Below are positions 34,099 to 53,950 of a DNA stretch of 64,000 bases, piece by piece. The notes under the pieces are model-generated. The model searched no databases. It was given only the letters and a program-made list of their open reading frames with translations, and was not told the origin of the DNA. Made by a program: the position numbers and the translations under genes. Source of the DNA: Prevotella sp. (GTDB lineage: Bacteria; Bacteroidota; Bacteroidia; Bacteroidales; Bacteroidaceae); NCBI GenBank assembly GCA_017460515.1, contig JAFUAY010000049.1, forward strand, positions 1 to 64,000, in the 5' to 3' direction. Numbering within the stretch: position 1 is the first letter of the stretch; each line of letters opens with the position of its first letter.

Positions 34099-34110
34099 AA
34101 AAACGATTGC
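34099..34110. promoter_or_regulatory. Degenerate LacI-type operator upstream of the susA-like gene
   Basis: AAAAACGATTGC matches GCAAACGTTTGC at 9 of 12 positions. Its centre (34104.5) is 62.5 bp from the -7 element, the same spacing as at susC. Confidence 0.55.
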
Positions 34111-34119
34111 ACAACCAAC

Positions 34120-34190
34120 AAGGCTAAAGTCCCTCCACTCGAAAACTAAAGTCTCTAAACACTAAACTCTAAACTCTCCACTCTATAGAC
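34120..34190. repeat. Pyrimidine-rich short repeats at the gene end
   Basis: Repeated CTCTAAA/CTAAACT/CTCCACT units span the last codons and stop of the hypothetical gene and the following intergenic DNA. Confidence 0.65.
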
Positions 34191-35131
34191 AGGTAGTACC
34201 AGATGTCGCGCTGCTCTATCCCTTCGTGATCCTCGTAAAAGTCCCTATAAGAGAACGACTCCGTTTTTCCTGGAGTGAGCACGTACTGTTGCTCACCTCT
34301 TCTGAGGATAATCTCCTGCTCGTTGATCTCCGTGATACACAGCCCTGCAAAGCCCTCATATACTAATGTGCCCGTGCGGGCCTGTATCGTCTCGTCAGTA
34401 CGCTCATTCCATTCGTTGTCCATCAGTGCCCATCCACGCTTGCTCCACCATATTCGCAGTTTGGCGTCAGTAGGTTCGCCTTCCTTCACGCTCCAGTTCA
34501 GTCTCCTTCTGCACTCGTCAGCATCTGTGATAAACACGTAGGCATTGTCAGCGCCAAGGGTGTCTCTAAGTATCTCTCCCACCTCGTCCCAATGCTCTTC
34601 AGGGTGGTCGCAGCATAGGGCGGAGAAAGCCTCCAGCATGGCTTTATTCAGTGGTTCCCAGTCTCTTTCCCTTTCATACGGGGCAGAAGAAAGCAGGATG
34701 GCCTCTTTACCATAGCCTATCAGGATATCAGCTATCAGGTCTCTGGTAGAATACAGCTCACGCTGGTTCAGGTAGAAATCAGCTGACAATGCCATCGCTT
34801 CAGCATTCAGCGTATACGGATTCTCCGGATAGGAGCCTCTTTCGCGTTTCACCTTCTTAAATAGGCAATGTCCCCACAGGCTGTCATCATTATAGGTAGG
34901 ACATCTGTAGAACATCACCGTAGGCGAATTGGTCTTCAGGCTCTTAAACAGTTTCTCATGTTCCTCCCACAACGCCTTCTCCAGCTTTGCTGCCCCCTCC
35001 TGATAGGCAGCAATCGTCTCCTCTGCCTGATTGCCTTTGGTCACCAGTCCGCTGATCCATCCGTCAATGTTCACTGTCACCGCCCTTGCGGTACCGTTCT
35101 TCGGGTTAAAAGCTTTTGCGATAATATCCAT
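34169..35131 (-). CDS. Hypothetical cytoplasmic protein
   Basis: The 320-residue protein has no signal peptide or membrane segment. Visible stretches include DIIAKAFNPKNGTARAVTVNIDGWI at the start, a helical middle with AEAMALSADFYLNQRELY, and a beta-rich end FAGLCITEINEQEIILRRGEQQYVLTPGKTESF. I do not recognise a family. The last codons and stop (IEWRV) fall within a GAGTGGAGAGTTTAG repeat, so the C-terminus may have been truncated or extended by repeat insertion. Own promoter at 35164-35171. Confidence 0.65.
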   Translation of the reverse strand: MDIIAKAFNPKNGTARAVTVNIDGWISGLVTKGNQAEETIAAYQEGAAKLEKALWEEHEKLFKSLKTNSPTVMFYRCPTYNDDSLWGHCLFKKVKRERGSYPENPYTLNAEAMALSADFYLNQRELYSTRDLIADILIGYGKEAILLSSAPYERERDWEPLNKAMLEAFSALCCDHPEEHWDEVGEILRDTLGADNAYVFITDADECRRRLNWSVKEGEPTDAKLRIWWSKRGWALMDNEWNERTDETIQARTGTLVYEGFAGLCITEINEQEIILRRGEQQYVLTPGKTESFSYRDFYEDHEGIEQRDIWYYLSIEWRV

Positions 35132-35163
35132 CTCGTTTGGTTTTTAGCTTCCTAAATCTGCTT

Positions 35164-35171
35164 CAAAGTTA
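35164..35171 (-). promoter_or_regulatory. -7 promoter element of the hypothetical gene
   Basis: The minus strand reads TAACTTTG, 33 bases before the ATG. Confidence 0.55.
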
Positions 35172-35236
35172 GCAAATTTTTCTGAAATCACCAAACTTTT
35201 TTCAATAATTCCTCAGAATCTTCGTATTTTCGTACT

Positions 35237-35430
35237 TCTGACTTTCTGACTTCTGACATCTGACGTTTTCCCAAAATTTTTTGGTACAGAAGCCAAGAAA
35301 GAAGAGAAGGGTAATAATAGTTAAAATATTTAACTATTAATATATTATATATATAATATATTAATAGTTCTTTTTGTTTGTGCAAATTAAAAACACCAAA
35401 ACGTCAGATGTCAGAAGTCAGAATGTCAGA
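35237..35430. repeat. Nested palindromic element (MITE-like)
   Basis: Arms 35237-35269 and 35398-35430 are complementary at 32 of 33 positions and are themselves built of CTGACTT/CTGACAT units. Between them lies a perfect 38-bp AT-only-like palindrome at 35332-35369. No transposase or ORF is present. It sits in a 650-bp gap between the hypothetical gene and the pullulanase operon. Confidence 0.6.
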
Positions 35431-35447
35431 TTTTACCTTGCTTGAGA

Positions 35448-35610
35448 GCGTTTGACCGAAACGCTGTGTGCGTTTGACCGAAACGCGCAAGGCAAACCGC
35501 CGAAACGCAATTTTGAGTGAAGAGTGAAGAGTGAAGAGTGAATAATTGGCTACCGCTCTGAGAGTGAAGAGTGAAGAATTGGCTACCGCTGTAGAGAGTT
35601 AAGAGTGAGA
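35448..35610. repeat. Cluster of short direct repeats
   Basis: Two copies of the 17-bp GCGTTTGACCGAAACGC (35448-35464 and 35470-35486) and a partial third are followed by many GAGTGAA/GAGTTAA units. Two longer copies of GAGTGAAGA...ATTGGCTACCGCT are also present. Confidence 0.75.
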
Positions 35611-35674
35611 TAATTCGCGGCAAAAAGATAGCGATGATTTTTTTGCAAAATTAGAGCGAAAAATGGGGTGCGAA

Positions 35675-35697
35675 AAAGGCGGGTTTTCCCGCCTTTC
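35675..35697 (-). terminator. Terminator of the pullulanase operon
   Basis: AAAGGCGGG and CCCGCCTTT pair with a TTTT loop and are followed by further T on the minus strand (CTTTTTCGC). Confidence 0.75.
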
Positions 35698-35722
35698 ACT
35701 TGCACGCATGTAAAGAAATGTG

Positions 35723-35730
35723 TACCTTTG
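35723..35730 (+). promoter_or_regulatory. Orphan -7 element facing the pullulanase 3' end
   Basis: TACCTTTG on the plus strand would drive transcription antisense to the end of the pullulanase gene. No plus-strand gene follows. Confidence 0.35.
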
Positions 35731-35787
35731 TAACGCCCGAACAACTAATCTCCTAAACGTCCAATCTACCAAACGCCCAAAGGACAT

Positions 35788-37749
35788 TCAGTCATGAAGG
35801 ATGAGGGCAGAGCACGCAGGCACGTCGACTGAAGAGGCTTCGAGGGTGGAGAGGCCGTTCTCGTCGATCTGACCATCACTGCAGACGATGGTGTAGCGAC
35901 CCTGTGGAATAACAAGGGTCTGCTGCTGAGAAGCAGCGTTGAGCACAACGATGATATTCCGCCAAGCATCACCTCCGGCATTGTCCTTCAGGCGGAAGGC
36001 AACGAGGCTTGCAGGGGTATCCCGAACAGCAGCATCAGCGGATGACTGAACAGGCAGGAACTCCAGATGCTGGCGCACCAGGTCGGCACTACCCAGACGG
36101 AAGGCGGGATGATGACGACGCAAGGCAATGAGGTTCTTATAGTACTCGAACACCTGCGGATACTCCGAGAGATGATGCCAAGGCAGCTGGTTGACGCTGT
36201 CGGGCGACTCGTAAGAATTGTGCACACCTTTTTTATCACGCAACAGCTCTTCACCGCTGAGCATAAAGGGGACGCCCTGAGAGGTGAACACAGCAGTCTG
36301 GGCGAGGAGGTCGAGGGAGACTAGTTGAGTGTTTAGAGATGAGAGTTTAGAGACTTTAGTATTCTGCACGCTGGCTTTGAGGCGATCGACGAGGCACATA
36401 TCGTCATGGCAGCTGACGTAGGAAATCATCTGCGTGGGTTCGAGCGCCCAGGGCTCCTTGGAGTAGTTTACCTTCGACACGTCTACCTGCGGATGACGGA
36501 TGGCTCCCACGATACCGAACTTCAGACTCTCCTTCAGCACTGACAGCTCTTCAGTCTTCTCCGACGCGATCTTTGACATCATGGACAACCCAAGCCAACC
36601 CGGAATATGGTCATCAGAGAACGGACCACGGAGTGCATCGCGAATCTCATCGCTGAAGGCAGCAATGCGCGGCATTTGGGGAATATTTGCCTTCAGACCG
36701 AGTTGTTCAGCAGGAAGGCCACAGGCTCCCGCACTCCAGCCCTCGCCATAGATAAAGATAGAAGGGTCTATCTCGTCTACAGCCTTGCGAATCTCGTTCA
36801 TCGTCTCGATATCATGACAGCCCATGAGATCGAAACGGAAGCCATCAATATGATACTCGTTGATCCAGTACTTCACGCTCTCCATCATGAAACGTCGCAT
36901 CATGGGCTGCTCAGAGGCAGTCTCATTGCCACAGCCAGAGCCATTTGAACCTTTTCTATAGTAATAGTCGGGATAGGTGCGTTGGAAGTTAGAGTGGTCG
37001 ATGTCATAGGTATGGTTATATACCACGTCGAGGATGACGCGGATGCCTGCCTTATGGAGCGCCTGCACCATCTGCTTGAACTCACGGATGCGCACTTCGG
37101 GCTGATAAGGGTCAGTACTGTAGCCTCCCTCCGGCACGTTATAGTTCACTGGATCATAGCCCCAGTTATACTTATTGTCCTCCAGACGCGTCTCATCAAT
37201 GGAGCCATAGTCGTAGCTGGGCAGGATATGGACAGCATTGATACCGAGCGACGTCAGGTGATCGATGGCCCACGGCTCTGTGAGGGCGAGGAACTTGCCC
37301 GGATACTTGGCGTCAGGACGCGCGATGGAGAAATCGCGGTGATGCATCTCATAGATGACCAGGTCGGCAGGCGACTGACACGCGGGACGCTGATCACTCT
37401 CCCACCCTACAGGATCGGTATCGCGCAGGTCGACCACCACACCTTTCTCGCTATTAACAGTCACTGCCTTGGCAAAGACACCTGGCGACGACTGTCCGTT
37501 GACCATGAACTGATAGCTCTTACCCTTGTGGTCGCCACGGGCGGTGACGGTCCAAATGCTGTCTTCTCCAAGCTGCATGGGCAGGCTATCCTCACCCAGC
37601 ACCACCAGGCAGCGGGCATCGACGGGAGCAAAGAGGCGGAACACGGTTTCACTGGACGAGTAGGTCATCTCGTCGAAATGGAAGGCCTGCTGGCCTGAGC
37701 CACATGCGGTGAGGGTTGCAGCAAGCATCATTGAATAAAGAGTACGCAT
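35788..37749 (-). CDS. pulA: Type I pullulanase (GH13), lipoprotein
   Basis: The 653-residue enzyme debranches alpha-1,6 links of pullulan and amylopectin. A lipobox ending LTAC (about residue 17) precedes a CBM48-like domain. The type I pullulanase signature YNWGYDP is at about residue 195, then GFRFDLMG (nucleophile near 306), YGEGW (acid/base near 333) and SCHDD (near 447). A repeat at 36322-36362 encodes KVSKLSSLNTQLVSL after the third catalytic motif. The start MRTLYSMML at 37749 gives the signal peptide. It is the last gene of malQ-susB-pulA, 16 bp after susB. Confidence 0.92.
   Translation of the reverse strand: MRTLYSMMLAATLTACGSGQQAFHFDEMTYSSSETVFRLFAPVDARCLVVLGEDSLPMQLGEDSIWTVTARGDHKGKSYQFMVNGQSSPGVFAKAVTVNSEKGVVVDLRDTDPVGWESDQRPACQSPADLVIYEMHHRDFSIARPDAKYPGKFLALTEPWAIDHLTSLGINAVHILPSYDYGSIDETRLEDNKYNWGYDPVNYNVPEGGYSTDPYQPEVRIREFKQMVQALHKAGIRVILDVVYNHTYDIDHSNFQRTYPDYYYRKGSNGSGCGNETASEQPMMRRFMMESVKYWINEYHIDGFRFDLMGCHDIETMNEIRKAVDEIDPSIFIYGEGWSAGACGLPAEQLGLKANIPQMPRIAAFSDEIRDALRGPFSDDHIPGWLGLSMMSKIASEKTEELSVLKESLKFGIVGAIRHPQVDVSKVNYSKEPWALEPTQMISYVSCHDDMCLVDRLKASVQNTKVSKLSSLNTQLVSLDLLAQTAVFTSQGVPFMLSGEELLRDKKGVHNSYESPDSVNQLPWHHLSEYPQVFEYYKNLIALRRHHPAFRLGSADLVRQHLEFLPVQSSADAAVRDTPASLVAFRLKDNAGGDAWRNIIVVLNAASQQQTLVIPQGRYTIVCSDGQIDENGLSTLEASSVDVPACSALILHD
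36322..36362. repeat. Short-unit repeat inserted in pulA
   Basis: TTGAGTGTTTAGAGATGAGA-type units are in frame and encode SKLSSLNTQLVSL, matching the GAGTTTAGAG family seen outside genes. Confidence 0.65.
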
Positions 37750-37765
37750 ATACGATTGGAGAATA

Positions 37766-39985
<2,220 letters not shown>

Positions 39986-42445
39986 TTACTTTCGTCCGCT
40001 TTGGACAATCATGGTGGCGATTTCCTCGTTAAGCGCATCAGCAGCGAGGAGCTGTTCAAGCGTGAGGTGCATGCGGTAGCGCCAGTAATGACGCGGGTTG
40101 GCAGGAATATTGATGCGCTCAGCGTTCTGGTCAGGCAGTCGCAGCTGCTCGTTGACAGAGAGCCAGTCCTGAAGCGACAGCAGACAAAGCATAGAAGGCG
40201 ACGTAAGATGACGGGTCACGATCTCCTTAGCCAGCCATCCCGGTAGCGGATGGGGTGCAGCACCCTCACGACGCAGACGAGACTCGTAGTAGTCCTGCGT
40301 GCGCTCCTCATCCTCATCCCACCACTGACGGAGCGTTGCCATATCGTGAGTAGAAATGGTGCATACGGAGCGATAGGGATTATGAGAGAGCTTTCCGAAA
40401 CGGATGCCCTGCTCCTTCGGCATCGACTGGATTTCCAGCGAGAGGATGCGCAGCTCGTTCATCACCCAGGGCACGCAATCGGGCACCATGCCCAGGTCTT
40501 CAGCACAGCAGAGCATACGGGTGGCCTGCGTCAGACGAGGCAGTTTCTTCATTGCCTCCTGATACCAGAACTGGTTATTGCGACGATAGAAATAATCATT
40601 ATAGAGATTCCAGAAACGCCACTGCTCGTCAGCTGAGAGCTCCTGGAACTCAGGCATCTTCACCGCATTGATGCGCGGGTGCCACAACTCCCTACCCTTA
40701 TTGTCACGGAGGAAGAGCACCTCACGGAAAGGAATGCCATAGGCCTCCACCTCAGCCTGGGTCATGCCCAGGGCGGGCTGGAATTGTCCCCAGAGTCCAC
40801 TCTTGTGAGGCATGGGAATCTCCCAGATACGGAAGAAGCCCAGCACATGGTCGATACGGTAGGCATCGAAATATTCTGCCATCTTACGGAAACGGCGCAC
40901 CCACCACTGACAACCATCAGCGAGCATCTCGTCCCAGTTGTAGGTGGGGAAGCCCCAGTTCTGTCCGTCTTCAGCGAAAGCATCGGGCGGAGCACCAGCC
41001 TGTCCGTTCAGGTTGAAGTAGCGTGGTTCCACCCAAGCCTCAACACCATCACGACTAATGCCGATGGGGATATCGCCCTTGAGGATGACACGCTGCTCGC
41101 GGGCATGTTTATGGGCAGCGCGCATCTGCTGGTCGAGGTTGAACTGAACAAAATACCAGAACGCCACCTCTTTATATAGTTTAGTCGTTGGTTTCGACAT
41201 AGCCACACGCTCGCTTTCAGGCAGCTCATGATGGTCGGGCCAGGCTGAGAAGGTAGCAGTGCCATAGAGGTCGCGGTAGTGACAGAAGGCAGCATAAGGC
41301 ACCAGCCACTCCTTGTTCTGCTCGAAGAACTGCTTGAAGGCGTCAGTCTTCATCACCTTGCTACCCTCCTGGGCATAGATCTCGCGCAGGTAATCCATCT
41401 TGGCAGCAAACATCCGCTCGTAGTCAATCTGTGGCAGGGCATTGAGTTCCTTGCGAACTGTCTCGAAAGCCTCGCGCTTAGCCTCATCCTTGATGGCAGG
41501 CAACTGGCGCAGATCCGTGTATTGCGGATGGAGGGCATAGATACTGATACTGTTATAGGGATAAGAGTCCTGCCACGTCTTCGTGATGTTCGTATCATTG
41601 ATGGGCAACACCTGCAGGATGCACTGTCTGGTCTTGGCACACCAGTCGATCATCAGCTTCAGATCGCCGAAGTCGCCCACACCGAAACTGCCTTCCGTAC
41701 GCAGAGAAAAAACGGGAATCACAGCACCTGCTCCCTTCCACGGATAGATGGGGAACGAGGCCTTTGACAGCTCATAGACCACCACATCGCCCACTTCCAG
41801 TTCCGGAAGGGACACCGTACGGTTCGCACCCGTCTCCCAGAGAGGCGTCACGTCTTCTTCATCGTCGAGGCCCACAAACTTGAACTCAAAGGTCTGAGGC
41901 AGTTTGTCTGCATCGAGGCTGATGACCCACTCGTTGTACTCGTGCTCCGTCATATCCATGGCTCGCTTGGCCTCCCAGTTACCCAGCAGTTCGCCAGCGC
42001 CTAGGATGGCCAGGCGCTCGAAGTTACGCAACTGCGGGGCGCGTACCTTCAGCCGCACAGTACGGGCAAAGTGTGTAGGCTCGCTCATATTCACCCCACG
42101 GGCAGCAACACACTCTGTAAAGGCTGTGGAATAGAGATAGGCATCCTCCGGGATGTCGAGCCAGTGGTCATAGACGACGTAGCGCACGCCACGCTTGGCC
42201 TGCAGCTCCAGTCTGTGGGGCATCATCAGCCACTCATGGCGTTTCTCCTCATCGCCAGCATACAGGCTATAGTAATAATCCACGAAGGTAGCTGAGAGCG
42301 ACCTCAATGTAGTGCCTAACTGCCAATGCTCACCATCCTGGGTCTGCATCGGATAACGCTTCACCTGCTGCTTCTCGTCAAGCATGTTCAGAACGAGATG
42401 CTCACCAAAAACAGTCTTGTACTCAAGGTTAAAAAGTAACTTCAT
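39986..42445 (-). CDS. malQ: 4-alpha-glucanotransferase (GH77), second copy
   Basis: The 819-residue enzyme has two N-terminal CBM20-like domains (KLLFNLEYKTVFGEHLVL; LKVRAPQLRNFERLAILG) and a GH77 core with RIDHVLGFFRIWEIP, CCAEDLGMVPDCVPWV and STHDMATLRQWW. It is a paralogue of the enzyme at 21896-24556, 67 residues shorter, but embedded in the glucan locus as first gene of malQ-susB-pulA. The start at 42445 is downstream of the -7 element (42470-42477). A LacI operator 61.5 bp upstream suggests maltodextrin control. Confidence 0.93.
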   Translation of the reverse strand: MKLLFNLEYKTVFGEHLVLNMLDEKQQVKRYPMQTQDGEHWQLGTTLRSLSATFVDYYYSLYAGDEEKRHEWLMMPHRLELQAKRGVRYVVYDHWLDIPEDAYLYSTAFTECVAARGVNMSEPTHFARTVRLKVRAPQLRNFERLAILGAGELLGNWEAKRAMDMTEHEYNEWVISLDADKLPQTFEFKFVGLDDEEDVTPLWETGANRTVSLPELEVGDVVVYELSKASFPIYPWKGAGAVIPVFSLRTEGSFGVGDFGDLKLMIDWCAKTRQCILQVLPINDTNITKTWQDSYPYNSISIYALHPQYTDLRQLPAIKDEAKREAFETVRKELNALPQIDYERMFAAKMDYLREIYAQEGSKVMKTDAFKQFFEQNKEWLVPYAAFCHYRDLYGTATFSAWPDHHELPESERVAMSKPTTKLYKEVAFWYFVQFNLDQQMRAAHKHAREQRVILKGDIPIGISRDGVEAWVEPRYFNLNGQAGAPPDAFAEDGQNWGFPTYNWDEMLADGCQWWVRRFRKMAEYFDAYRIDHVLGFFRIWEIPMPHKSGLWGQFQPALGMTQAEVEAYGIPFREVLFLRDNKGRELWHPRINAVKMPEFQELSADEQWRFWNLYNDYFYRRNNQFWYQEAMKKLPRLTQATRMLCCAEDLGMVPDCVPWVMNELRILSLEIQSMPKEQGIRFGKLSHNPYRSVCTISTHDMATLRQWWDEDEERTQDYYESRLRREGAAPHPLPGWLAKEIVTRHLTSPSMLCLLSLQDWLSVNEQLRLPDQNAERINIPANPRHYWRYRMHLTLEQLLAADALNEEIATMIVQSGRK

Positions 42446-42469: not shown

Positions 42470-42477
42470 CAAAATTA
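42470..42477 (-). promoter_or_regulatory. -7 promoter element of malQ-susB-pulA
   Basis: The minus strand reads TAATTTTG, matching TAnnTTTG, 25 bases before the ATG. Confidence 0.65.
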
Positions 42478-42529: not shown

Positions 42530-42555
42530 GGCGCAAACGTTTGCACATTTGCGCC
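42530..42555. terminator. Bidirectional hairpin containing a LacI operator
   Basis: GGCGCAAA (42530-42537) pairs with TTTGCGCC (42548-42555), with A runs and T runs on the two sides. It would terminate the transporter transcript. Its first arm and loop contain the palindrome at 42533-42544. Confidence 0.6.
42533..42544. promoter_or_regulatory. LacI-type operator upstream of malQ
   Basis: GCAAACGTTTGC is a perfect 12-bp palindrome, centred 61.5 bp upstream of the malQ -7 element. Confidence 0.75.
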
Positions 42556-43900: not shown

Positions 43901-44923
43901 TTATCTTGTTGTACCTCTTATTATCAGGCGCGTGCGCACGATGCGACGCTCCACCTTGTCAATCGGGATGCGCCCTTCCACATGTCCTATCAGCACACTG
44001 GCAGCCTCCTCGCCCACCTTCAGTCCGTTCTGCTCGATGGTGGTCAGCATCGGGTCGCACGAAACAGCCTCAATACCATTGGTAAAGCCACAGATGGAGA
44101 TATCCTCTGGCACACGCAGTCCCATGTGCTTTACTGCATAGAGTACACCAAGGGCTGTATCATCGTTGACAGTGAAGAAAGCATCCGGATAGCTGTCGCC
44201 ATCAAACAGGTCGGGCGTAATTCGCTCCGCCTCCCGACGATTATCACAGATACGCGTCAGCCGTTCATCATAGGGGATACCGTTTTTCAGGAGGGCATCC
44301 TTATACCCATTGAAACGATTCTTGGCAATCTCCATGTTCAGCTTCGAACCATAGTAGGCAATCCTCCGACAGCCTGTCTTCAACAGATGACTGACAGCAT
44401 TGAAAGCCCCCATGTAGTCGTCGACCACTACCCTACTGGCATTCACGCCCGTACAGATACGGTCATAGAACACCACGGGGACGCCTGCATCTATCAGGCG
44501 CTGGAAATGGTCATACTGATGGGTGTCCTTGGCTTGTGAGACAATGACGCCACACACCATGCTCTCATAGAACCAGCGACAGAGCTTCGCCTCGTGCTCA
44601 TAGCTCTCGCCACTCTGTGCCACGATGATGCGGTAACCACATGCCTCCGCTTTCTCCTCAATGCCATGCAGGATGGAAGAGAAATAGTAGTGAACGAACT
44701 CAGGGATGATGACACCAATAATCTTCAGGGGCTGCACCCTGCTGTTGCGCAGCGACTCAGCTAACACATTAGGTATAAAATTATGTTCGCGCGCGTATTG
44801 CTGAATCTGCTGTCTCCTGCTCTCCGAAATACGCGGAGAGTCTTGCAGCGCTCGCGATACCGTAGCTACCGACACGCCCAACTCGCGGGCAATATCTTTC
44901 ATGGTTATCATCTTGTCACTCAT
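43901..44923 (-). CDS. LacI-family transcriptional regulator of the glucan locus
   Basis: The 340-residue protein has the LacI helix-turn-helix (ITMKDIARELGVSVATVSRALQDSPRIS at the start), the hinge helix around PNVLAESLRNSR with the minor-groove leucine, and a periplasmic-binding-type effector domain (IIGVIIPEFVHYYFSSILHGIE; DAFFTVNDDTALGVLYA). It probably binds GCAAACGTTTGC-like sites at the promoters of susC, malQ, GH53, the susA-like gene and the 383-residue repeat protein. The effector is probably a maltooligosaccharide. It lies between the GH53 and MFS genes in one operon. Confidence 0.92.
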   Translation of the reverse strand: MSDKMITMKDIARELGVSVATVSRALQDSPRISESRRQQIQQYAREHNFIPNVLAESLRNSRVQPLKIIGVIIPEFVHYYFSSILHGIEEKAEACGYRIIVAQSGESYEHEAKLCRWFYESMVCGVIVSQAKDTHQYDHFQRLIDAGVPVVFYDRICTGVNASRVVVDDYMGAFNAVSHLLKTGCRRIAYYGSKLNMEIAKNRFNGYKDALLKNGIPYDERLTRICDNRREAERITPDLFDGDSYPDAFFTVNDDTALGVLYAVKHMGLRVPEDISICGFTNGIEAVSCDPMLTTIEQNGLKVGEEAASVLIGHVEGRIPIDKVERRIVRTRLIIRGTTR

Positions 44924-44989: not shown

Positions 44990-46252
44990 CTATTCCCTCA
45001 TCACTTTTCCATTATAAATCGTGAGGCCGCTACGAGAGGACACACCTTCGGGGAGCTTGCGTCCCTGCAGGTCAAACCGCTCTCCTCTACTCTCTCTCCT
45101 CTCTCCTCTTAAAGGGGTGATCCCTGCCTCCCCACCCAGGAAGTTCTTCAGTACGTAGAGACCAGGATGCGCTCTATGGTTGCTGTTGTTCCAGAGTCCG
45201 CGGTTCACCCATCCGTTCAGCACCTTCACAGCACTGCTGCCATTGCCGTTCTCTTCAGGAAACCACCAGTAGAGACCATTCACGTTAGGATGCTTCTTCA
45301 GCTCATCAATAAGGGCCTGAGCAAAGGCTGCCTGTCCTTCCTTTGAGACGGGCCACGTAGAAGAGAAATCATAGTCAATACCCTGGCCTTTCTCAGGCTG
45401 CCACTGGTAGTAATAGGCTGTCTCCACAATCTGCACCTTCTTGTTGGGGAAATTGGTTGCCAGATTGTTAAGCGACGTTGCAAGGGTCGACAGTCCGTTG
45501 TGCCAGAATGGATAATAGCTCAGGCCAATCACGTCGTAGTCGACTTCCGCCAAACGGCTATAGATGCCTACCAGCACGCTCGGATTTCCAGCACGCTCGG
45601 TATGGATAATAATCTTGGCCTGCGGACACACCTCGCGACAAGCCTTCGAAGCCTGTGAGAGCAGCGCCACGAAGCGTGGCCAGTTAGCATTACTGCTGGT
45701 ATAACAACGATAGCTATTCGAGCCCTCAGCACCCCACAGCATGCCGTATGAAATCTCGTTACCCGTCTGGATATAGTCGGGGGTGGCATCAGCATCGACC
45801 AATGCTTGCAGGCACTCTTTCGTATAGTCGTAGATCTTCTGTTTCAGTTCATCCTGAGTCAATGAGAGCCACGATTCAGGCGTCCACTGCTTGGAGGGGT
45901 CGGCCCAGGTATCGCTATAGTGGAAGTCAAGCATAAACGTATAGCCAGCGGCCTTGATACGCTTGCCCAACTTCACCACATAATCCAGATCCTGACACAC
46001 CTGCGGGTCGCTGTCGCCAGAGGGGTCGACGAACAGACGAACGCGAAGGGCATTCCACCCTACTTCCTCGCTCTTCAGATACGTCAACATATCGGTAATC
46101 TTCTTGCCATTATTATCGTAATAGGATGTTTTGGCCTCTTCATAACGGGGCAATACAGAGATATCGCCACCCACGAGCAAAGTCTCCTGACACCAGGCAG
46201 AAAGGGAAATGCCCATCACAGCCAAGAGCGAAAGTAATGTCTTTTTCATCAT
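44990..46252 (-). CDS. Endo-beta-1,4-galactanase GH53
   Basis: The 420-residue enzyme hydrolyses beta-1,4-galactan of type I arabinogalactan. It has a signal peptide ending WCQ (about residue 21), then GGDISVLPRYE, LRVRLFVDPSG, FMLDFHYSDTWADP, IQTGNEISYGMLWG with the acid/base glutamate, and VQIVETAYYY with the nucleophile glutamate. The tail FDLQGRKLPEG...GLTIYNGKVMRE resembles a sorting domain; a repeat at 45075-45120 adds GERRESRGERF just before it. It is first in the operon with lacI and MFS. Presence in a starch locus is unusual. Confidence 0.92.
   Translation of the reverse strand: MMKKTLLSLLAVMGISLSAWCQETLLVGGDISVLPRYEEAKTSYYDNNGKKITDMLTYLKSEEVGWNALRVRLFVDPSGDSDPQVCQDLDYVVKLGKRIKAAGYTFMLDFHYSDTWADPSKQWTPESWLSLTQDELKQKIYDYTKECLQALVDADATPDYIQTGNEISYGMLWGAEGSNSYRCYTSSNANWPRFVALLSQASKACREVCPQAKIIIHTERAGNPSVLVGIYSRLAEVDYDVIGLSYYPFWHNGLSTLATSLNNLATNFPNKKVQIVETAYYYQWQPEKGQGIDYDFSSTWPVSKEGQAAFAQALIDELKKHPNVNGLYWWFPEENGNGSSAVKVLNGWVNRGLWNNSNHRAHPGLYVLKNFLGGEAGITPLRGERRESRGERFDLQGRKLPEGVSSRSGLTIYNGKVMRE
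45075..45120. repeat. Pyrimidine-rich repeat inserted in the GH53 gene
   Basis: CTCTCCT units on the plus strand are in frame and encode RGERRESRGER on the minus strand, between the catalytic domain and the C-terminal tail. Confidence 0.7.
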
Positions 46253-46298: not shown

Positions 46299-46306
46299 CA
46301 AAAGTA
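46299..46306 (-). promoter_or_regulatory. -7 promoter element of GH53-lacI-MFS
   Basis: The minus strand reads TACTTTTG. The operator centre is 24.5 bp upstream, overlapping the -33 region, so binding there should affect this promoter directly. Confidence 0.6.
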
Positions 46307-46322
46307 AAGAAAATCACGTAAA

Positions 46323-46338
46323 ATGCAAACGTTTGCAT
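46323..46338. promoter_or_regulatory. LacI-type operator between GH53 and susC
   Basis: ATGCAAACGTTTGCAT is a perfect 16-bp palindrome in the divergent promoter region, centred 62.5 bp upstream of the susC -7 element and 24.5 bp from that of the GH53 operon. Confidence 0.85.
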
Positions 46339-46392: not shown

Positions 46393-46400
46393 TATCTTTG
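46393..46400 (+). promoter_or_regulatory. -7 promoter element of susCDEF
   Basis: TATCTTTG lies 95 bases before the susC ATG at 46495, leaving a leader of about 90 nt. Confidence 0.65.
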
Positions 46401-46494
46401 CAATTGAATTTACCAATCAACCCTTTCTTGTGTAGAAGAACTAAAAACGAATATAACATAATTACTAACAACATTAACTCAAAAATTACATGCA

Positions 46495-49400
46495 ATGATG
46501 AAGCAGGCAAACAGTATGATCCTTTGTCTAGGCAAAGCGATGAATCGATTACCTGTCAGAATGCTGGCCCTTCTGGTGGGCTTGTTCATGACAATGGGAG
46601 CCTTTGCGCAAATCAGTGTGCAAGGACATGTGAAGGATTCGAGTGGTGAACCTGTTATTGGTGCTACCGTACGCGTAGTGGGTACACAAGTAGCAACCAT
46701 CACCGATTTCGATGGAAATTTCTCACTGAAAGCCAATCAGGGCGCTGACATCAGCGTCTCGTTCGTTGGTTTCCAGACAGCAACTAAAAAGGCTGCTGCC
46801 AAGATGGAGTTTATCATGAAAGATGACCAGGCCGTTCTGGAGAATGTGGTGGTCATTGGCTACGGACGCGCGAAGAAGAGCGACCTCACGGGTTCTGTCA
46901 CAGCCATCAAGCCCGATGACAAGAACCATGGACTGAACGTCAATGCGCAGGACATGATCCAGGGTAAGATTGCTGGTGTGAATATCACATCGGGCGACGG
47001 TACGCCTGGTGGCGGAGCCCAGATCCGCATCCGTGGTGGTTCGTCGCTGAATGCCTCTAACGACCCTCTGATCGTTATCGACGGACTGGCAATGGACAAC
47101 TATGGTGTTCAGGGACTTGCCAACCCTCTCTCAATGGTCAACCCGAACGATATCGAGTCGTTCACCGTGCTGAAGGACGCTTCAGCTACTGCTATTTATG
47201 GTAGCCGCGCTTCAAACGGTGTGATCATCATCACCACGAAGAAGGGACGCTCAGGACAGAAGCCCACCTTTAATTATAGTGGTAATGTTTCTATTTCGTC
47301 CAAGAAGAAGACCATCGAGGTCATGGATGGTCCTGGATTTACAGACTTCATCAAGAACCTCTATGGCGAAGGTAGCGATGCCTACAACGAACTGGGCTAT
47401 CTGGATGCCAATGGCAACAAGCAGTATGCCAATACTGACTGGCAGGATGAGATTTTCCGCACTGCCATCAGCACTGACCATAACCTGACCATGTCGGGCG
47501 GACTGAAGAACATGCCTTATCGTGTATCTTTAGGCTATACCAACAACCAGGGTATCATCAAGACCTCAAAATTTGAGCGTTATACCGCCAGCTTCAGCCT
47601 CTCTCCTTCCCTGCTGAAGGATCACTTGAAACTGAACATCAACGGTAAGGGTATGATTGCCAAGAACCGTTATGCTCCAGGTGTGGTAGGATCAGCCATC
47701 TCTATGGATCCCACCAAGGCTGTCACCAGCGACAACCCCATCTACAATGAATATTTCGATGGCTATGTGCAGAACTATACTGCAGCTGCCTATGATGGTG
47801 CTGCCAGTTGGAAATACACCAACAAGGGCACAGGCAACCCAATAGCTGCCCTCAATCAGACCAATGACCGCGCTACCTCAAAGACCTTGATGGGTAATAT
47901 TGAGGCAGACTATGCCATTCATGGCTTTGAAGACCTGCACCTGCACATGAACGCTGCTATGGACCTCTCGACAGGTAAGCAGGAGAATGACAAGGAATAC
48001 AGATCGGCTGTAGCCAACTATTATGGTTATACTGGTTGGAACACGATGGACACCTACAACCTGCAGCTGTCTCTCTACGCACAGTACATGAAAGACTTCA
48101 CCAAAGACCACCACTTCGATATAATGGCTGGTTACGAATGGCAACACTACCATAAACAGACAGACTGGTATGGTCATGGCACATACCCTGCTGGCAATAC
48201 CAAGTATGCTGAAGGCTCACAGTATGACGCCCCGAAGGAAGACCAGATTACAGAATACAAGACAGAGAACTACCTCGTATCTTTCTTTGGACGCCTGAAC
48301 TACACACTGATGGATCGCTACATGCTGACCTTCACACTGCGTGCTGACGGATCATCACGTTTCAACTGGATGAAGGGCAACGAGAACCAGCAGTGGGGCT
48401 ACTTCCCCGCCCTGGCGCTGGCTTGGAAGATGAAGGAAGAGCCTTTCCTGAAGAATATCAAGGCATTGAGCGACGCCAAGTTGCGCTTAGGCTGGGGTAA
48501 GACCGGTCAGCAGGAAGGTATTGGCGACTACACCTATATCCCCGTATTCAAGCCGAATACCAACGCACATGCGCTCTATCCCGTACTGGGCAATGGTACC
48601 ACCTATCGTCCACAGGCTTACAATGCCCACCTTACTTGGGAGAAGACCACTACCTGGAACGCAGGTATCGACCTGGCATTCCTGAACAACCGTATCGAGT
48701 TCTCAGTAGACTGGTACTATCGCAAGACTACCGACCTGATTAACACTGTATTCGTAGCTGCAGGTTCTAACTTCCGCAACAAAGTAACGAGCAACATCGG
48801 ATCACTGCACAACACGGGTATTGAGTTCATGACTACCGTTCGTCCCATCCAGAACAAGACCTGGAACTGGGAGGTTAGCTACAACTTCACTTACAACAAG
48901 AACGAAGTTGACGAGCTGATTTCTGGCGAAGGTGATGACTACTTCGTAGAGACTGGAGGCGGACTGACTGGTACTGGTGGCAACATCCAGGCACATACTG
49001 TAGGTAAACCTACGAGTTCTTTCCATGTTTACCAGCAGGTATATGACCAGAATGGCAATCCTATCCCCAACACCTTCGTAGACCGCAATGGTAATGGCTA
49101 TCTGGACAGTGGTGACCGCTACTACTATTACAAGCCTGCTCCCGACGTGACGATGGGACTTTCATCGAAACTGAGCTACAAGAACTGGGACCTCGGCTTC
49201 TCAATGCGTGCCAGCCTGGGCAACTACGTATTCAATAGTGCTGCTTCAGGCTCCAGCAACGTGGGTGCAGGCAGTGTCTACACGAATGGAAACCTCAGCA
49301 ACCTGCGTGTTTCTTCAGTAGAGCGCGGCTTCACGAATGTTTCTCAGCAGCAATATGCTTCCGACTACTTCGTAGAGAATGCATCCTTCCTGAAGATGGA

Positions 49401-49593
49401 CAATATCACCTTGGGCTACAGCTTTGAGAAGTTCTTCGGAACTCCTCTCAGCGGACGTGTCTATGCAACAGTGCAGAACGTATTCACCATCACCAAGTAT
49501 TCGGGCATTGACCCAGAGGTGGCCAGCGGTGTCGACGGTGATATCTATCCCCGTCCTATCACCACGATCCTTGGTGTAAGCCTGAACTTCTAA
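46495..49593 (+). CDS. susC: SusC-like TonB-dependent outer-membrane transporter
   Basis: The 1032-residue protein has a signal peptide ending AFAQ (about residue 38), a carboxypeptidase-D-like N-terminal domain (VQGHVKDSSGEPVIGATVRVVGT...TDFDGNFSL), a TonB-box region, the plug with VVVIGYGRAKKSDLTGSV and DASATAIYGSRASNGVIIITTKKG, and a 22-strand barrel ending TILGVSLNF. It imports glucan oligosaccharides using TonB energy with the SusD-like partner. It is first of susC-susD-susE-susF. A second ATG (MNRLPVRML) at about residue 15 is an alternative start with a more usual signal peptide. Confidence 0.96.
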   Translation: MMKQANSMILCLGKAMNRLPVRMLALLVGLFMTMGAFAQISVQGHVKDSSGEPVIGATVRVVGTQVATITDFDGNFSLKANQGADISVSFVGFQTATKKAAAKMEFIMKDDQAVLENVVVIGYGRAKKSDLTGSVTAIKPDDKNHGLNVNAQDMIQGKIAGVNITSGDGTPGGGAQIRIRGGSSLNASNDPLIVIDGLAMDNYGVQGLANPLSMVNPNDIESFTVLKDASATAIYGSRASNGVIIITTKKGRSGQKPTFNYSGNVSISSKKKTIEVMDGPGFTDFIKNLYGEGSDAYNELGYLDANGNKQYANTDWQDEIFRTAISTDHNLTMSGGLKNMPYRVSLGYTNNQGIIKTSKFERYTASFSLSPSLLKDHLKLNINGKGMIAKNRYAPGVVGSAISMDPTKAVTSDNPIYNEYFDGYVQNYTAAAYDGAASWKYTNKGTGNPIAALNQTNDRATSKTLMGNIEADYAIHGFEDLHLHMNAAMDLSTGKQENDKEYRSAVANYYGYTGWNTMDTYNLQLSLYAQYMKDFTKDHHFDIMAGYEWQHYHKQTDWYGHGTYPAGNTKYAEGSQYDAPKEDQITEYKTENYLVSFFGRLNYTLMDRYMLTFTLRADGSSRFNWMKGNENQQWGYFPALALAWKMKEEPFLKNIKALSDAKLRLGWGKTGQQEGIGDYTYIPVFKPNTNAHALYPVLGNGTTYRPQAYNAHLTWEKTTTWNAGIDLAFLNNRIEFSVDWYYRKTTDLINTVFVAAGSNFRNKVTSNIGSLHNTGIEFMTTVRPIQNKTWNWEVSYNFTYNKNEVDELISGEGDDYFVETGGGLTGTGGNIQAHTVGKPTSSFHVYQQVYDQNGNPIPNTFVDRNGNGYLDSGDRYYYYKPAPDVTMGLSSKLSYKNWDLGFSMRASLGNYVFNSAASGSSNVGAGSVYTNGNLSNLRVSSVERGFTNVSQQQYASDYFVENASFLKMDNITLGYSFEKFFGTPLSGRVYATVQNVFTITKYSGIDPEVASGVDGDIYPRPITTILGVSLNF

Positions 49594-49643
49594 GCGCTGG
49601 GCTAATGGAAAAATGATAATTGATAAATGAAAAAGTAAAAGCT

Positions 49644-51329
49644 ATGAAACTGAAATATATTTTACCAGCTGCATTGTTCACTGGCTCATTTCTTTTCACT
49701 TCCTGTGTGAAAGACTTGGAGGTGGATAATATCAATCCCCAAGAGTTGTCTGACTTCAATCAGGACTATGTCTTCAATAAGATTTATGGCAACCTCGTGC
49801 TCACAGGACAGACGGGTCCTAACGGTGACTCGGATCTGGATGATATCGATGAGGGTACATCTAACATGACACGTTTGATCTGGTATCTGAACGTGCTGAC
49901 TACCGACGAGGCTCACTGCTGGTGGAACGACCCTGGCGCGCCTGAGCTGAACCGCAACTCATGGACAAACTCCAACGTTCTGATCAAGGCCCTCTACTAT
50001 CGTCTGATGTTTGGCGTAACGCTCTGTAACTTCTATCTTGACAGCGCTACTGGCGGTGACAATGAGACCAAGACCAAACGTGCGGAGGCTCGTTTTATGC
50101 GCGCATTCCATTATTTCTACCTGATGGACTTCTATGCCAATCCTCCGTTCCTCACCAAGCTTTCAAGCGAGAATGCATCACAGATTCAGCGTCCAGACCT
50201 CTTTACGTTCCTGGAGAGCGAGTTGAAAGACGTGATTGGCGAGGGCTCAGGCGACGAAATTCTGGCTGATGCAAGACAGACTGAGTATGGTCGTGCAGAC
50301 AAGGCTGCTGCCTATCTGCTGCTGGCCCGCCTGTATCTGAACGCAGAAGTCTACACAGGCACTGCTCGCTGGGCAGACGCTAAGACCTATGCAGAGAAAG
50401 CCATCAACACTGGCTATAAGCTCTGCGAGACGCCCAAGAACGGATTCAGTGCCTACCAGCTGCTCTTCATGGGCGACAACAACGAAAACGGTGCTCAGGA
50501 GGAAATCATCCTTCCTGCCCTCCACGATGGTGACAAGACACAGACCTGGGGTGGTTCACTCTATGTGATTGCCAGCAACATGTCATCAAAGATGCGCGAT
50601 ATGGACCTCTATGGCGCTACAGACGCCAATGGCGATCCTATCAAGGGCTATGGAACAACTGAAGCCTGGGATCGTGGCGTACGTGCACGCAAGCAGTTCT
50701 CACAAGTATTCTTCGGCAGTACAGCTTCCAGCGCTGCACAGGGAGCCCCCAAGGATATCGTTATCAAGGTGGCTGACGATCGTGCTATCTTCTATACAAC
50801 CGGACAGAGTCTGAGCATCGAGGATGAGAAGTCGACAGCCAGTGGTCTGATCTACATGAAATACAACAACCTGCATGCTGACGGAACAGCTGGTCATGAC
50901 CCCGGTGGTCGCTTTGTAGATACCGACTATCCCATGCTCCGACTGGCAGAGGCTTACCTCATTTCTGCAGAGGCAGACGCCCGCATCAATGGAGGCAACT
51001 GCTCAGCAGAAGGTGTTGAGCGCATCAAGGCGCTGCGCAAACGTGCCAACGTAAAAGCCAGCAACCCCTATGATGGCAAGAGTCCTGAATCACTCACCAG
51101 TGTATCATTGGAAGACATCTTCCAGGAATGGTCACGCGAGTTCGGCTACGAGGGTATGCGCCGTATGGTACTGATCCGCTGGAACCGCTTTGCAGGACAG
51201 AGCGACTACAAGTGGGAATGGATGGGAGGCACACATGCTGGAACACAGTTTGACAAGCGCTTCAACATCTTCCCCATTCCTGACAGCGAGTTGAACGCCA
51301 ACCCGAATATTAAGCCTAATTACAATTAA
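49644..51329 (+). CDS. susD: SusD-like starch-binding lipoprotein
   Basis: The 561-residue protein has a lipobox ending TSC (about residue 20), then KDLEVDNINPQELSDF, a TPR-like helical scaffold (ALYYRLMFGVTLCNFYL; ADKAAAYLLLARLYLNAEVY), and a SusD C-terminus with YEGMRRMVLIRWNRF and FPIPDSELNANPNIKPNYN. SusD caps the SusC pore and binds glucan at the surface. It lies 50 bp after susC across an AAATGATAATTGATAAATG repeat. The start was chosen for the signal peptide. Confidence 0.95.
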   Translation: MKLKYILPAALFTGSFLFTSCVKDLEVDNINPQELSDFNQDYVFNKIYGNLVLTGQTGPNGDSDLDDIDEGTSNMTRLIWYLNVLTTDEAHCWWNDPGAPELNRNSWTNSNVLIKALYYRLMFGVTLCNFYLDSATGGDNETKTKRAEARFMRAFHYFYLMDFYANPPFLTKLSSENASQIQRPDLFTFLESELKDVIGEGSGDEILADARQTEYGRADKAAAYLLLARLYLNAEVYTGTARWADAKTYAEKAINTGYKLCETPKNGFSAYQLLFMGDNNENGAQEEIILPALHDGDKTQTWGGSLYVIASNMSSKMRDMDLYGATDANGDPIKGYGTTEAWDRGVRARKQFSQVFFGSTASSAAQGAPKDIVIKVADDRAIFYTTGQSLSIEDEKSTASGLIYMKYNNLHADGTAGHDPGGRFVDTDYPMLRLAEAYLISAEADARINGGNCSAEGVERIKALRKRANVKASNPYDGKSPESLTSVSLEDIFQEWSREFGYEGMRRMVLIRWNRFAGQSDYKWEWMGGTHAGTQFDKRFNIFPIPDSELNANPNIKPNYN

Positions 51330-51353
51330 GCAACTCAAAAAAACTGAACAGAT

Positions 51354-52577
51354 ATGAAAAAGTTAAGCATTATATTTCCACTGTTGGTAGGTGCTTTCCT
51401 GATGGCTGCCTGTGAAACGGACCGCGATGACAACCCAACCATCGACCTCACACAGAAGCAACAAGCCATTACATTGAACATACCAACCTTTGCCAATAGT
51501 ACCTACGACCTGGCAAACACTGACTCAGTGACGCTGACTTGCACGGCTCCCAACTACGGATTCCCTGCAACAACGACTTACGTGGTTCAGCTGTCTATTG
51601 ATGAAGACATGTCAAATCCCAGTGAGCTGACAACAACCTACTATCTGAACCGTATGGTGGTTCCTGGCAAGGAGATTGCTATGGCCACAACCAAGCAGAT
51701 GATCAACAAGAAGGGACTGAAGCAGGAGGACTTTCCCGTGGAGACACCAGCCTATCTGCGCATTCGTGCCTTCATTGAAGGAACACCTGAGACAGAGACA
51801 CTGTCAAACATCGTCAAGCTGAACAAGGTGAAGACGAAGTTCGCCCTGCCTGATGTAGCAATGCCCGACTCAATGTTTGTCAATGGAACATTCACTGATA
51901 ACGACTGGAGCAAATCAGTGAAGACCATTCAGGTGAACAACTCTACTCAGAACCATTGGCGCATGGTTTGGATGGACAGCAAGGGCGTACGTCTCAGCCC
52001 CATCCAGGGTGAACCTAACTTCAGCGACAATATGATTACGCCTGTCCATGTATGTAACACGACTGGATTCAAGGTTTCTTCCGATGGTCTTGTTACTGCT
52101 GAGAACCCTGGCTGGTATGTTATGCTCATTGAGGGCACTGGTAACAACGAAAAGCGCCAGCTGACGTTGACCTACAGATTCTACGAAGCTACGGTATGGC
52201 TCATTGGTCCCAGCCTGAACAATGTGCTTGGCGATGACATCAAGGATTGCTGGACTGAGAAGGGACTGCGCGAGAACTACACACAATACGTGAAGTTCAC
52301 TACTCCTACGACGATGGATGGAGTATTCGTTTCTCCCCCACTGGTTGGTAATGTGACTGGTGACGATGGTGGCGTACGCGCCTATGTCAGCATCAAGTGG
52401 GACTGGTGGCAGACAGAGTTCATGGCCTACACGAACGACAAAGACCGCACCAGCAGCACACGCATCATCAAGTATCGTGGCAATGGCGAAGAGGTGAAAC
52501 CTTTCGTGGACGGAATACAAGGTCAGCGCGTCTACCTGAACTTCCGTAACGACACGGGTGAGATTAGAAATGAATAA
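51354..52577 (+). CDS. SusE-like surface glycan-binding lipoprotein
   Basis: The 407-residue protein has a lipobox ending MAAC (about residue 19) followed by an acidic spacer, a SusE-type N-terminal immunoglobulin-like domain (LANTDSVTLTCTAPNYGFPATTTYVVQLSIDEDM), and C-terminal beta domains with aromatic residues (WKWDWWQTEF-like region near residue 350) that may bind starch. It lies 24 bp after susD. Its binding role is inferred from the family and position. Confidence 0.85.
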   Translation: MKKLSIIFPLLVGAFLMAACETDRDDNPTIDLTQKQQAITLNIPTFANSTYDLANTDSVTLTCTAPNYGFPATTTYVVQLSIDEDMSNPSELTTTYYLNRMVVPGKEIAMATTKQMINKKGLKQEDFPVETPAYLRIRAFIEGTPETETLSNIVKLNKVKTKFALPDVAMPDSMFVNGTFTDNDWSKSVKTIQVNNSTQNHWRMVWMDSKGVRLSPIQGEPNFSDNMITPVHVCNTTGFKVSSDGLVTAENPGWYVMLIEGTGNNEKRQLTLTYRFYEATVWLIGPSLNNVLGDDIKDCWTEKGLRENYTQYVKFTTPTTMDGVFVSPPLVGNVTGDDGGVRAYVSIKWDWWQTEFMAYTNDKDRTSSTRIIKYRGNGEEVKPFVDGIQGQRVYLNFRNDTGEIRNE

Positions 52578-52601
52578 TAACCCATTAACAGAGAATCGAT
52601 T

Positions 52602-53795
52602 ATGAAAAAGATATCATTATTACTGATGCTCGTCATCGCAGGCTGGTCACTGACCGCCTGTGACGAGAGCCATAACGACTATCCTATGCCACCCGTTTAT
52701 CCGCAGGAGCCTCTTATAACGGTGGAAGGCTTTGAGGCTACAACAACCCCGGCAGCCACACAGCCTATTGACTTAGGAACGATGACCGAAGATTCCATCC
52801 AGCTGTTTACCCTGAAACAGGGAACACTGCCAGAAGGCATGACGCTCAAGAATCTCCGTCTGGAGGCAAAGGCCAACGACAAGCCCAAGGAGCAGCCCCA
52901 TAATGTGATGGCCAGCAGCGACGGCTATGTCAAGAAAGAGGAATTTTCAAAATTGGTCTACACATTCTATGGCAAGAAAGCCACAGAGCGCACCTTCACA
53001 GCACAGGTCTTTGCTGATGCTGTCAAGGGTAACGAGGCACAGCTGATCTATCTGACAGCTCCCTTTACGCTGAGGGTTACGCCTGAGAAACTGGAAGATC
53101 CATACTACTATCTGTTCGGACTGGCTACCGGCAACGTATCAGCTGCCAATGCCTACAAGTACGTGATGACTCCTATTGAAGGCAACGATATGGGATTCAC
53201 TTTCACCACCAAATACACTTCCAAGAAAGCGGGCGACCTGCTGGTATGGAATATCAGCTACTGGAAGAACGACTTCCCCAAGAAGGACTTCTCAAAGGTA
53301 TATGCTACGGAGACGAAATACGACAAGTCTGAGAAGGGTTTGGTTATTCAGGGTGAGAAGGACAACTACTTCATCGCGCCTACAGCTGAGTATTACACCT
53401 TTAAAATTGACCTCGAAGCACTCACCTTCGAATGGCAAAAGCTCGATGATCAGAATCCTGCCACGTATACAAATATTTCTATAATTGGTGCCTTCAACGC
53501 ATGGAACGAGACTGATAACAGCGAGATTGAACTGGCTGCCGTTGACCCCAGCAAGCACAACTGGTACGTGCGTCATACCTTTGCCAGCGACACAGAGCTG
53601 AAGTTCCGTGCCAACCATGACTACTCAGTAATGAACTGGGGCTATGGCAACAACGACAAGGACTGGGATGCTGGCGAGGACTGGGCTAAGATCTGCGAAA
53701 AGGACAAGAAGAACATCGCAGTACCCGCTGGTACCTACGACATCTACTTCTGCGACATTACTGGAGCAGCCCACTTCGTACCTGTTGAAGAATAA
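52602..53795 (+). CDS. SusF/SusE-like surface glycan-binding lipoprotein
   Basis: The 397-residue protein has a lipobox ending LTAC (about residue 20), an N-terminal Ig-like region, and a C-terminal starch-binding-like module with SIIGAFNAWNETDNSEIEL and LKFRANHDYSVMNWGYGNNDKDWDAG, the pattern of SusE/SusF carbohydrate-binding domains. It is the last gene of the susC-F operon (24 bp after the SusE-like gene) and is followed by a terminator. It probably helps hold starch at the surface. Confidence 0.85.
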   Translation: MKKISLLLMLVIAGWSLTACDESHNDYPMPPVYPQEPLITVEGFEATTTPAATQPIDLGTMTEDSIQLFTLKQGTLPEGMTLKNLRLEAKANDKPKEQPHNVMASSDGYVKKEEFSKLVYTFYGKKATERTFTAQVFADAVKGNEAQLIYLTAPFTLRVTPEKLEDPYYYLFGLATGNVSAANAYKYVMTPIEGNDMGFTFTTKYTSKKAGDLLVWNISYWKNDFPKKDFSKVYATETKYDKSEKGLVIQGEKDNYFIAPTAEYYTFKIDLEALTFEWQKLDDQNPATYTNISIIGAFNAWNETDNSEIELAAVDPSKHNWYVRHTFASDTELKFRANHDYSVMNWGYGNNDKDWDAGEDWAKICEKDKKNIAVPAGTYDIYFCDITGAAHFVPVEE

Positions 53796-53813
53796 TCTGA
53801 CTCCATTCTGATG

Positions 53814-53857
53814 AACAAGAGGGTGTGTCACAAAATGACGCATCCTCTTGTTTTTTA
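53814..53857 (+). terminator. Terminator of the susCDEF operon
   Basis: CAAGAGG pairs with CCTCTTG, with inner GTGTGTCA/TGACGCAT partial pairing, followed by six T. Confidence 0.8.
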
Positions 53858-53874
53858 GAAACATTCGATACAAT

Positions 53875-53886
53875 GTAATCGTTTGC
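53875..53886. promoter_or_regulatory. Degenerate LacI-type operator of the 383-residue gene
   Basis: GTAATCGTTTGC matches GCAAACGTTTGC at 10 of 12 positions. Its centre (53880.5) is 62.5 bp upstream of the -7 element. Confidence 0.6.
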
Positions 53887-53942
53887 GCACGAACTTTTAT
53901 ATTTTTTACATGCGCACGTGAGCACTCTATTGTAAAAATACT

Positions 53943-53950
53943 TAACTTTG
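53943..53950 (+). promoter_or_regulatory. -7 promoter element of the 383-residue gene
   Basis: TAACTTTG lies 87 bases before the start codon. Confidence 0.6.

Follow-up and report, generated by a model that had tools for sequence, protein, structure and literature searches.

Rigid operator-promoter spacing suggests activation of Prevotella starch genes by an adjacent LacI-family protein

In Bacteroides thetaiotaomicron, the starch utilization (sus) genes are activated by SusR, a membrane protein with predicted direct-repeat sites 67 or 77 bp apart (PMC3878776; this and the following papers are cited from excerpts of their text). In B. fragilis and B. uniformis, the sus loci carry a LacI-family gene and an MFS transporter gene and are without SusR; the excerpt names these LacI genes only, giving neither an operator nor a mode of action (PMC11633381). 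MalR of Streptococcus pneumoniae is also a LacI-family regulator of maltodextrin genes, and is a demonstrated repressor (PMC4451989). CcpA of Bacillus subtilis, another family member, has a CG-centred palindrome and activates genes whose site lies upstream of the -35 element (ackA, pta, ilvB; PMC3463425), and FruR/Cra of Escherichia coli both represses and activates (PMC4052901). CcpA and FruR/Cra are global regulators: the former works with HPr-Ser-P and mostly represses, the latter controls central metabolism. FruR/Cra is not known to be bound to one rigid distance. In the open-licence literature, we recognised no LacI-type activator of Bacteroidota starch genes. Here we analyse a sus-type locus in 64,000 nt of Prevotella sp. 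DNA (assembly GCA_017460515.1, contig JAFUAY010000049.1, positions 1 to 64,000; hereafter the window), from a genome that is 65% complete. The locus encodes GH13, GH97, GH77 with CBM20, an MFS transporter, a LacI-family regulator, GH53, SusC, SusD, SusE/F-like proteins and an X25-repeat protein, and the subject of this study is the regulator and the palindromic operator that recurs at its promoters.

The regulator belongs to the LacI family by its domains, an N-terminal helix-turn-helix (PF00356, E 7.4e-16) and a periplasmic-binding-protein-like sensor (PF13377, E 4e-32), and CcpA is among its closest solved structures by sequence. The membrane sensor and direct repeats of SusR are not found here: the protein is predicted to be cytosolic and the site is a single palindrome. 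Compared with CcpA, it is a pathway regulator beside its own polysaccharide utilization locus, with one near-fixed operator distance in more than 100 genomes and an operator common to two divergent promoters. This regulatory geometry is real, conserved and unusually rigid. Its best reading, which we hold with considerable confidence from the comparison of sequences, is that the adjacent LacI protein activates the starch genes from the near-fixed site. The genes and sites concerned in the window are these:

43901..44923, - strand: LacI-family regulator, proposed activator, 340 aa (Pfam LacI and Peripla_BP_3)
46495..49593, + strand: susC-like TonB-dependent receptor gene, target, with susD/E/F-like genes downstream to 53795
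46325..46336: susC operator, perfect GCAAACGTTTGC (16-bp form ATGCAAACGTTTGCAT at 46323-46338)
46393..46400, + strand: susC -7 element TATCTTTG, 62.5 bp from the operator centre, without TTG at -33
39986..42445, - strand: malQ (GH77 with CBM20), target
42533..42544: malQ operator, perfect GCAAACGTTTGC
42470..42477, - strand: malQ -7 element TAATTTTG, 61.5 bp from the operator centre
54030..55181, + strand: gene for the X25-repeat protein, 383 residues, target
53875..53886: X25 gene operator GTAATCGTTTGC, 10/12
53943..53950, + strand: X25 gene -7 element TAACTTTG, 62.5 bp from the operator centre
32058..34004, - strand: susA-like GH13 gene (cyclomaltodextrinase type), doubtful target
34099..34110: candidate weak operator of the susA-like gene, AAAAACGATTGC, 9/12, without ortholog support
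34035..34042, - strand: susA-like gene -7 element TATATTTG, 62.5 bp from the candidate site

Distances are given from the operator centre to the T of TAnnTTTG. The sequence-only reading of this DNA had claimed four sites at 62.5 (susC), 61.5 (malQ), 62.5 (X25) and 62.5 bp (susA-like), and a rescan returned the same sites and spacings. TAnnTTTG occurs 55 times in the window. At offsets 61.5/62.5, the top scores are 12, 12, 10 and 9, exactly the four promoters, with 7/12 next; elsewhere between 30.5 and 119.5 bp (60.5-63.5 excluded), a score of at least 9 occurs at 1 of 4730 positions. The first malQ of the window (21896-24556), put forward as an internal negative, behaves as one: no site lies at 61.5/62.5 bp, where the best score is 3/12. 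The susC and malQ operators are the only perfect 12-mers found in the 65%-complete genome. The loose pattern (up to 3 mismatches) shows no enrichment in the window (26 observed vs 25.4 expected), so that site number alone was rejected as evidence and the weight lies on perfection and spacing.

An ortholog of the regulator (E 1e-70 or better) is present in 120 of 150 genomes of the same genus. Up to 20 kb was fetched around the 120 matches. In 110 of these loci susC was matched, and in 106 the region upstream of it was usable (N-terminus aligned, at least 200 bp present), which makes 107 with the window. The window was likewise added to the 76 malQ, 47 amylase, 3 X25, 28 susA and 117 regulator regions. 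The relatives with names are Prevotella, Xylanibacter and uncultured Prevotellaceae, many of rumen origin, and include the culturable Xylanibacter brevis ATCC 19188 (L211), which shares the geometry; their 80-locus set overlaps the 120-locus set and is therefore not an independent replicate. All 107 of the 107 susC regions have an exact TAnnTTTG at 61.5, 62.5 or, in a single case, 63.5 bp from the operator centre. Thus the spacing is conserved in orthologous promoters, a point on which the earlier reading could have failed, and the site stands at a fixed helical distance upstream of -35, as expected of a CcpA- or Cra-like activator. The best operator scores at least 10/12 in 105 of these regions; for 19 palindromes made by shuffling its letters, the average is about 1.2 of 107. 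The operator-to--7 distance has a standard deviation of 0.52 bp (n = 106) versus 19 bp for the -7-to-start distance (n = 41), and the median identity of the spacers is no more than 31-49%. In the column information from -80 to +21, the strong conserved blocks are the palindrome, the -7 element and A/T tracts; in the susC promoters, T and A tracts lie between operator and -7.

In most of the fetched relatives, the regulator gene is directly divergent from susC, with no GH53 gene between them. A site of at least 10/12 is present in 114 of the 118 regulator upstream regions, linking the CG-centred palindrome to the regulator gene, and TAnnTTTG is found at 60.5-63.5 bp on this side in 110. Both sides hold in 102 genomes, the two distances summing to 123-127 bp: a single operator is located midway between two divergent promoters, those of susC and of the regulator. 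Among 20 homologs from other genera of the family (49-67% identity), 11 retain a distance of 61.5/62.5 bp on the side of the divergent gene and 15 a distance of 60.5-63.5 bp on that of the regulator; one locus of the same family, L163, keeps the spacing on both sides.

The pattern GCAANCGNTTGCN{41,71}TANNTTTG was then scanned, unanchored to any gene, in 60 genomes of the genus. It gave 198 matches versus 2 for the reversed pattern (summed from the table), and the gap was 55-57 in 139 among the 150 matches listed of the 198. Matches were found in 54 of the 55 regulator-bearing genomes and in 1 of the 5 without the regulator, or in 0 of these 5 with the tight gap. Twenty distal matches were read: 10 precede GH13, GH77 or GH97 genes, 1 a beta-lactamase-fold gene, 1 a DUF3575 gene, and 8 have no convincing open reading frame (ORF). 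The beta-lactamase-fold gene is preceded by operator and promoter with a gap of 57 (L279), and the listed stretch is identical in two further genomes (G017 C57 and G076 C1).

TAnnTTTG and a -33 TTTG are published elements of sigma-ABfr promoters, the -33 element not being found in Flavobacterium according to the excerpt (PMC7366714). We searched for TTG 18-21 bp before the -7, using as controls 77 promoters without operator in the same loci. TTG is present in 14 of 279 operator promoters (1/106 susC, 6/110 regulator, 5/35 malQ, 2/28 amylase) versus 37 of 77 controls, and a weak or missing -33 is what is expected of class I activator-dependent promoters. Promoters unable to start by themselves are activator promoters. 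The fixed upstream distance points to contact with the polymerase and leaves the direction of the effect undecided; the -33 element decides more. Where TTG is missing, ACAA occupies position -21 relative to the TA of the -7 in 35/106 susC and 21/110 regulator promoters and in 0/77 controls (loci L043-L162). The susC, malQ, amylase and X25 sites lie upstream of -33, and not over or downstream of the promoter core as in a repressor layout; the layout is unclear for nine malQ sites described below.

A second distance class was revealed by scanning GNAAACGTTTNCN{8,38}TANNTTTG in the same 60 genomes: 38 of 55 matches have a gap of 18-19, that is 24.5-25.5 bp from TAnnTTTG. The GNAAACGTTTNC sites of this class, mostly GTAAACGTTTGCG, place the operator TTTG at the -33 position, which looks like the layout of repression. 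The class includes a LacI paralog of the window genome (G000 C28, L172; 25.5 bp) and the GH53 side of the susC operator, the only place in the window with the repressor layout. The features concerned, with the neighbouring transporter gene, are:

46299..46306, - strand: GH53-side -7 element TACTTTTG, 24.5 bp from the susC operator
44990..46252, - strand: GH53 gene, between regulator and susC in the window genome
42594..43889, - strand: MFS sugar transporter gene, adjoining the regulator, without an operator of its own
42530..42555: terminator-like inverted repeat GGCGCAAA...TTTGCGCC, with A and T runs at its flanks, 3' of the MFS gene

On the GH53 side, the TTTG of the susC operator occupies the -33 position with a 19-bp gap to the -7, and the bound regulator would be expected to block this promoter, a point absent from the earlier reading. 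The regulator gene lies 67 bp downstream of GH53 without a TAnnTTTG of its own before it; the GH53-side promoter therefore probably also serves the regulator by co-transcription, and the regulator may repress itself here while activating susC. Within 46299-46336, one site may thus activate the susC side and block the GH53 side. The malQ operator, for its part, sits inside the terminator-like inverted repeat at 42530-42555.

At the other targets, the operator reaches at least 10/12 in 58 of 77 malQ regions, where 34 have an exact TAnnTTTG at the same distance and 14 a one-mismatch form; one of the 58 matches lies inside the gene. For the GH13 amylase the operator is present in 37 of 48 regions, with a -7 at the spacing in 27 exact and 10 one-mismatch cases. 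The X25 gene has a site at 61.5 or 62.5 bp in 4/4 regions, and the spacing is present in 2/62 GH97 regions. Conserved sites upstream of the susA-like, MFS and pullulanase genes were considered and rejected, 10/12 being reached in 1/29, 0/115 and 0/53 regions, respectively.

A terminator-like hairpin closes each of the eight distal operator-driven units that lack a convincing ORF. ORF-less units measure about 110-320 nt (L280, L284, L285, L286, L288, L289, L290, L292; L303-L306, L311, L317, L327, L328, L333, L335, L337, L342), and several have a conserved UUUUGUUGAUUUAGUGA just 5' of the hairpin. Just before the hairpin, TTTTGTTGATTTA is common to 5 of the 8 units, four of these five carrying TTTGTTGATTTAGTGA. 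The exact 16-mer occurs six times in 120 genomes, four times at known and twice at new loci; upstream of each new locus stand an operator and a -7 separated by 62.5 bp, a feature of 0 of the 12 one-mismatch matches. A covariance model built from the six 16-mer loci was run on 200 genomes. Seven non-training matches exceed 46 bits, four with operator and spacing (L327, L328, L332, which is L280, and L333) and three without (L329-L331); the window genome has no match to the model. Most of the weak matches (77/200 genomes at E 0.01 or better) were not trusted: 30 loci were cut out, 24 of them non-training, and 7 of these 24 have operator and spacing. In Rfam (8 loci), the gathering score was reached only by a tRNA outside the unit, and a base-pairing target search with the motif returned only sites with 0-2 mismatches. 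Neighbours are common to several units, and one locus (L321) has a 407-aa OEP-like ORF and two DUF4230 ORFs. The nearest described RNA is GibS of B. thetaiotaomicron, a sugar-linked intergenic small RNA of the Bacteroidales near glycogen genes; it has a PM2 promoter and a conserved 5' end, whereas the present candidate combines a LacI operator with a conserved 3' motif, a distinction drawn from descriptions (PMC7366714). Judged from these sequence features, the ORF-less units probably represent a candidate conserved small RNA switched on by the LacI-family regulator.

Several observations weigh against activation by the adjacent LacI protein as a complete account. The spacing is missing in 8 of 118 regulator regions, and 19 of 77 malQ and 11 of 48 amylase regions lack an operator of at least 10/12. 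Nine of the 58 malQ operators (L047, L051, L053, L082, L112, L158, L159, L160, L161) lie 33-48 bp before malQ, just past the MFS stop codon; these leave no room for a promoter 62 bp away and are not accounted for by activation. Conservation is lacking for the susA site: the single region reaching 10/12 has no promoter at the distance, and site and spacing occur together in 0/28 regions besides the window, so that the susA-like gene, which the sequence-only reading had counted among the targets, is without support as a member. Genome G091 has the regulator without a pattern match. Homologs of 39-42% identity from other families lack the 62-bp geometry with an exact -7 in 7/7 cases, and the extension to such distant homologs was rejected. 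In the scan for the 24.5-25.5 bp class, the reversed control gave 26 matches versus 55 (our own sum), so only the peak at 18-19, not the match number, carries weight. Finally, a LacI-family protein can also repress from upstream through contact with the polymerase, as GalR of E. coli does at galP1.

That example gives the form of one alternative, in which the regulator would hold the polymerase inactive at the fixed distance until sugar releases it. Upstream repression needs a fixed helical distance just as activation does, and most LacI proteins are repressors (PMC4451989). However, it implies a promoter that is strong alone, and this is at odds with the scarcity of the -33 TTG at operator promoters; in addition, the genus has the separate 24.5-25.5 bp class for ordinary repression. 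We regard it as distinctly improbable. We give still less credit to anti-activation, in which the LacI protein would block another activator, much as LevR is blocked by CcpA at the lev operon of B. subtilis (PMC3463425): the ACAA at -21 could be the site of a second factor, but it is weak and missing from most promoters, no second motif of similar strength exists from -80 to +21, and no regulator of another family was found among 20 window proteins run through Pfam, a subset of the ORFs of the 64-kb window. Chance, or descent without function, is hardly credible. It is true that the loci are related and the counts not independent, and that the window shows no enrichment of the loose pattern; but several non-homologous promoters preserve operator, -7 and distance across spacers of median identity 0.31-0.49, and shuffled palindromes at 10/12 or better do not approach the 105 susC regions of the real one.

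The identity of the binding protein is the remaining point, as the sites might be used by another LacI paralog, a view we consider unlikely. The 65%-complete genome has four other LacI-like matches, and the C28 paralog, with an operator of its own and a recognition helix that is nearly identical, tells against an exclusive assignment, as does a genome (G011) in which a C28-type LacI gene adjoins an operator-driven unit. This gene (L325:128-1150) is 66% identical to the C28 paralog. The C28 site GTAAACGTTTGCG differs, however, from RTGCAAACGTTTGCAY at the flanks and sits at 25.5 bp, and the 62-bp pattern tracks the adjacent regulator: it is present in 54 of the 55 genomes with the regulator and kept in 3 of 20 without it (tight gap; the 20 include the five above and most are incomplete), a comparison of related genomes scanned with different gap ranges. 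Of the binding proposed for the 43901-44923 protein in the sequence-only reading, adjacency and co-occurrence thus speak in favour, and the paralogs with a near-identical helix keep the assignment provisional. The activation proposed there from the fixed upstream distance gains support from ortholog spacing, the missing -33 element and the separate 24.5-25.5 bp class, and appears probable on these grounds.

Activation by the adjacent regulator could proceed as follows. The 43901-44923 protein would bind the 16-bp palindrome RTGCAAACGTTTGCAY as a dimer, with maltose or a maltodextrin as the presumed effector, and would touch RNA polymerase from its fixed upstream place, as class I activators do. 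With its centre 61.5-62.5 bp from the TA of the -7, the operator would be about 73 bp ahead of the transcript start, provided that the -7 is true to its name, and the A/T tracts between operator and promoter may offer a binding place for the alpha subunits of the polymerase. In most relatives, the midway operator would serve for activation on both sides, of susC and of the gene for the regulator itself; in the window, where it covers the -33 of the promoter presumably shared by GH53 and the regulator, the bound protein would probably repress its own synthesis while activating susC. The regulon would be that of alpha-glucan use, with the susC operon, malQ, the GH13 amylase, the X25 protein and sometimes GH97, to which some species may add the short terminator-ended transcript. 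A broader picture, for which we see about even chances, is that Prevotella and relatives read the palindrome by distance, with repression from 24.5-25.5 bp, on the -33, and activation from 61.5-62.5 bp, and that a dedicated LacI activator, acting two ways from one operator halfway between two promoters without a -33, replaces SusR in starch use, regulates its own gene and, beyond the enzymes, turns on a conserved small RNA that ends in a terminator.

Polysaccharide utilization loci have their founding example in the starch loci, and in the excerpts of the cited literature activation is described only for SusR (PMC3878776, PMC11633381). Where the distance between operator and promoter is rigid, the sequence by itself predicts the sign of regulation, and the LacI regulons of this group could be sorted by the two distance classes into activated and repressed ones. 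The candidate small RNA would tie starch sensing to post-transcriptional control.

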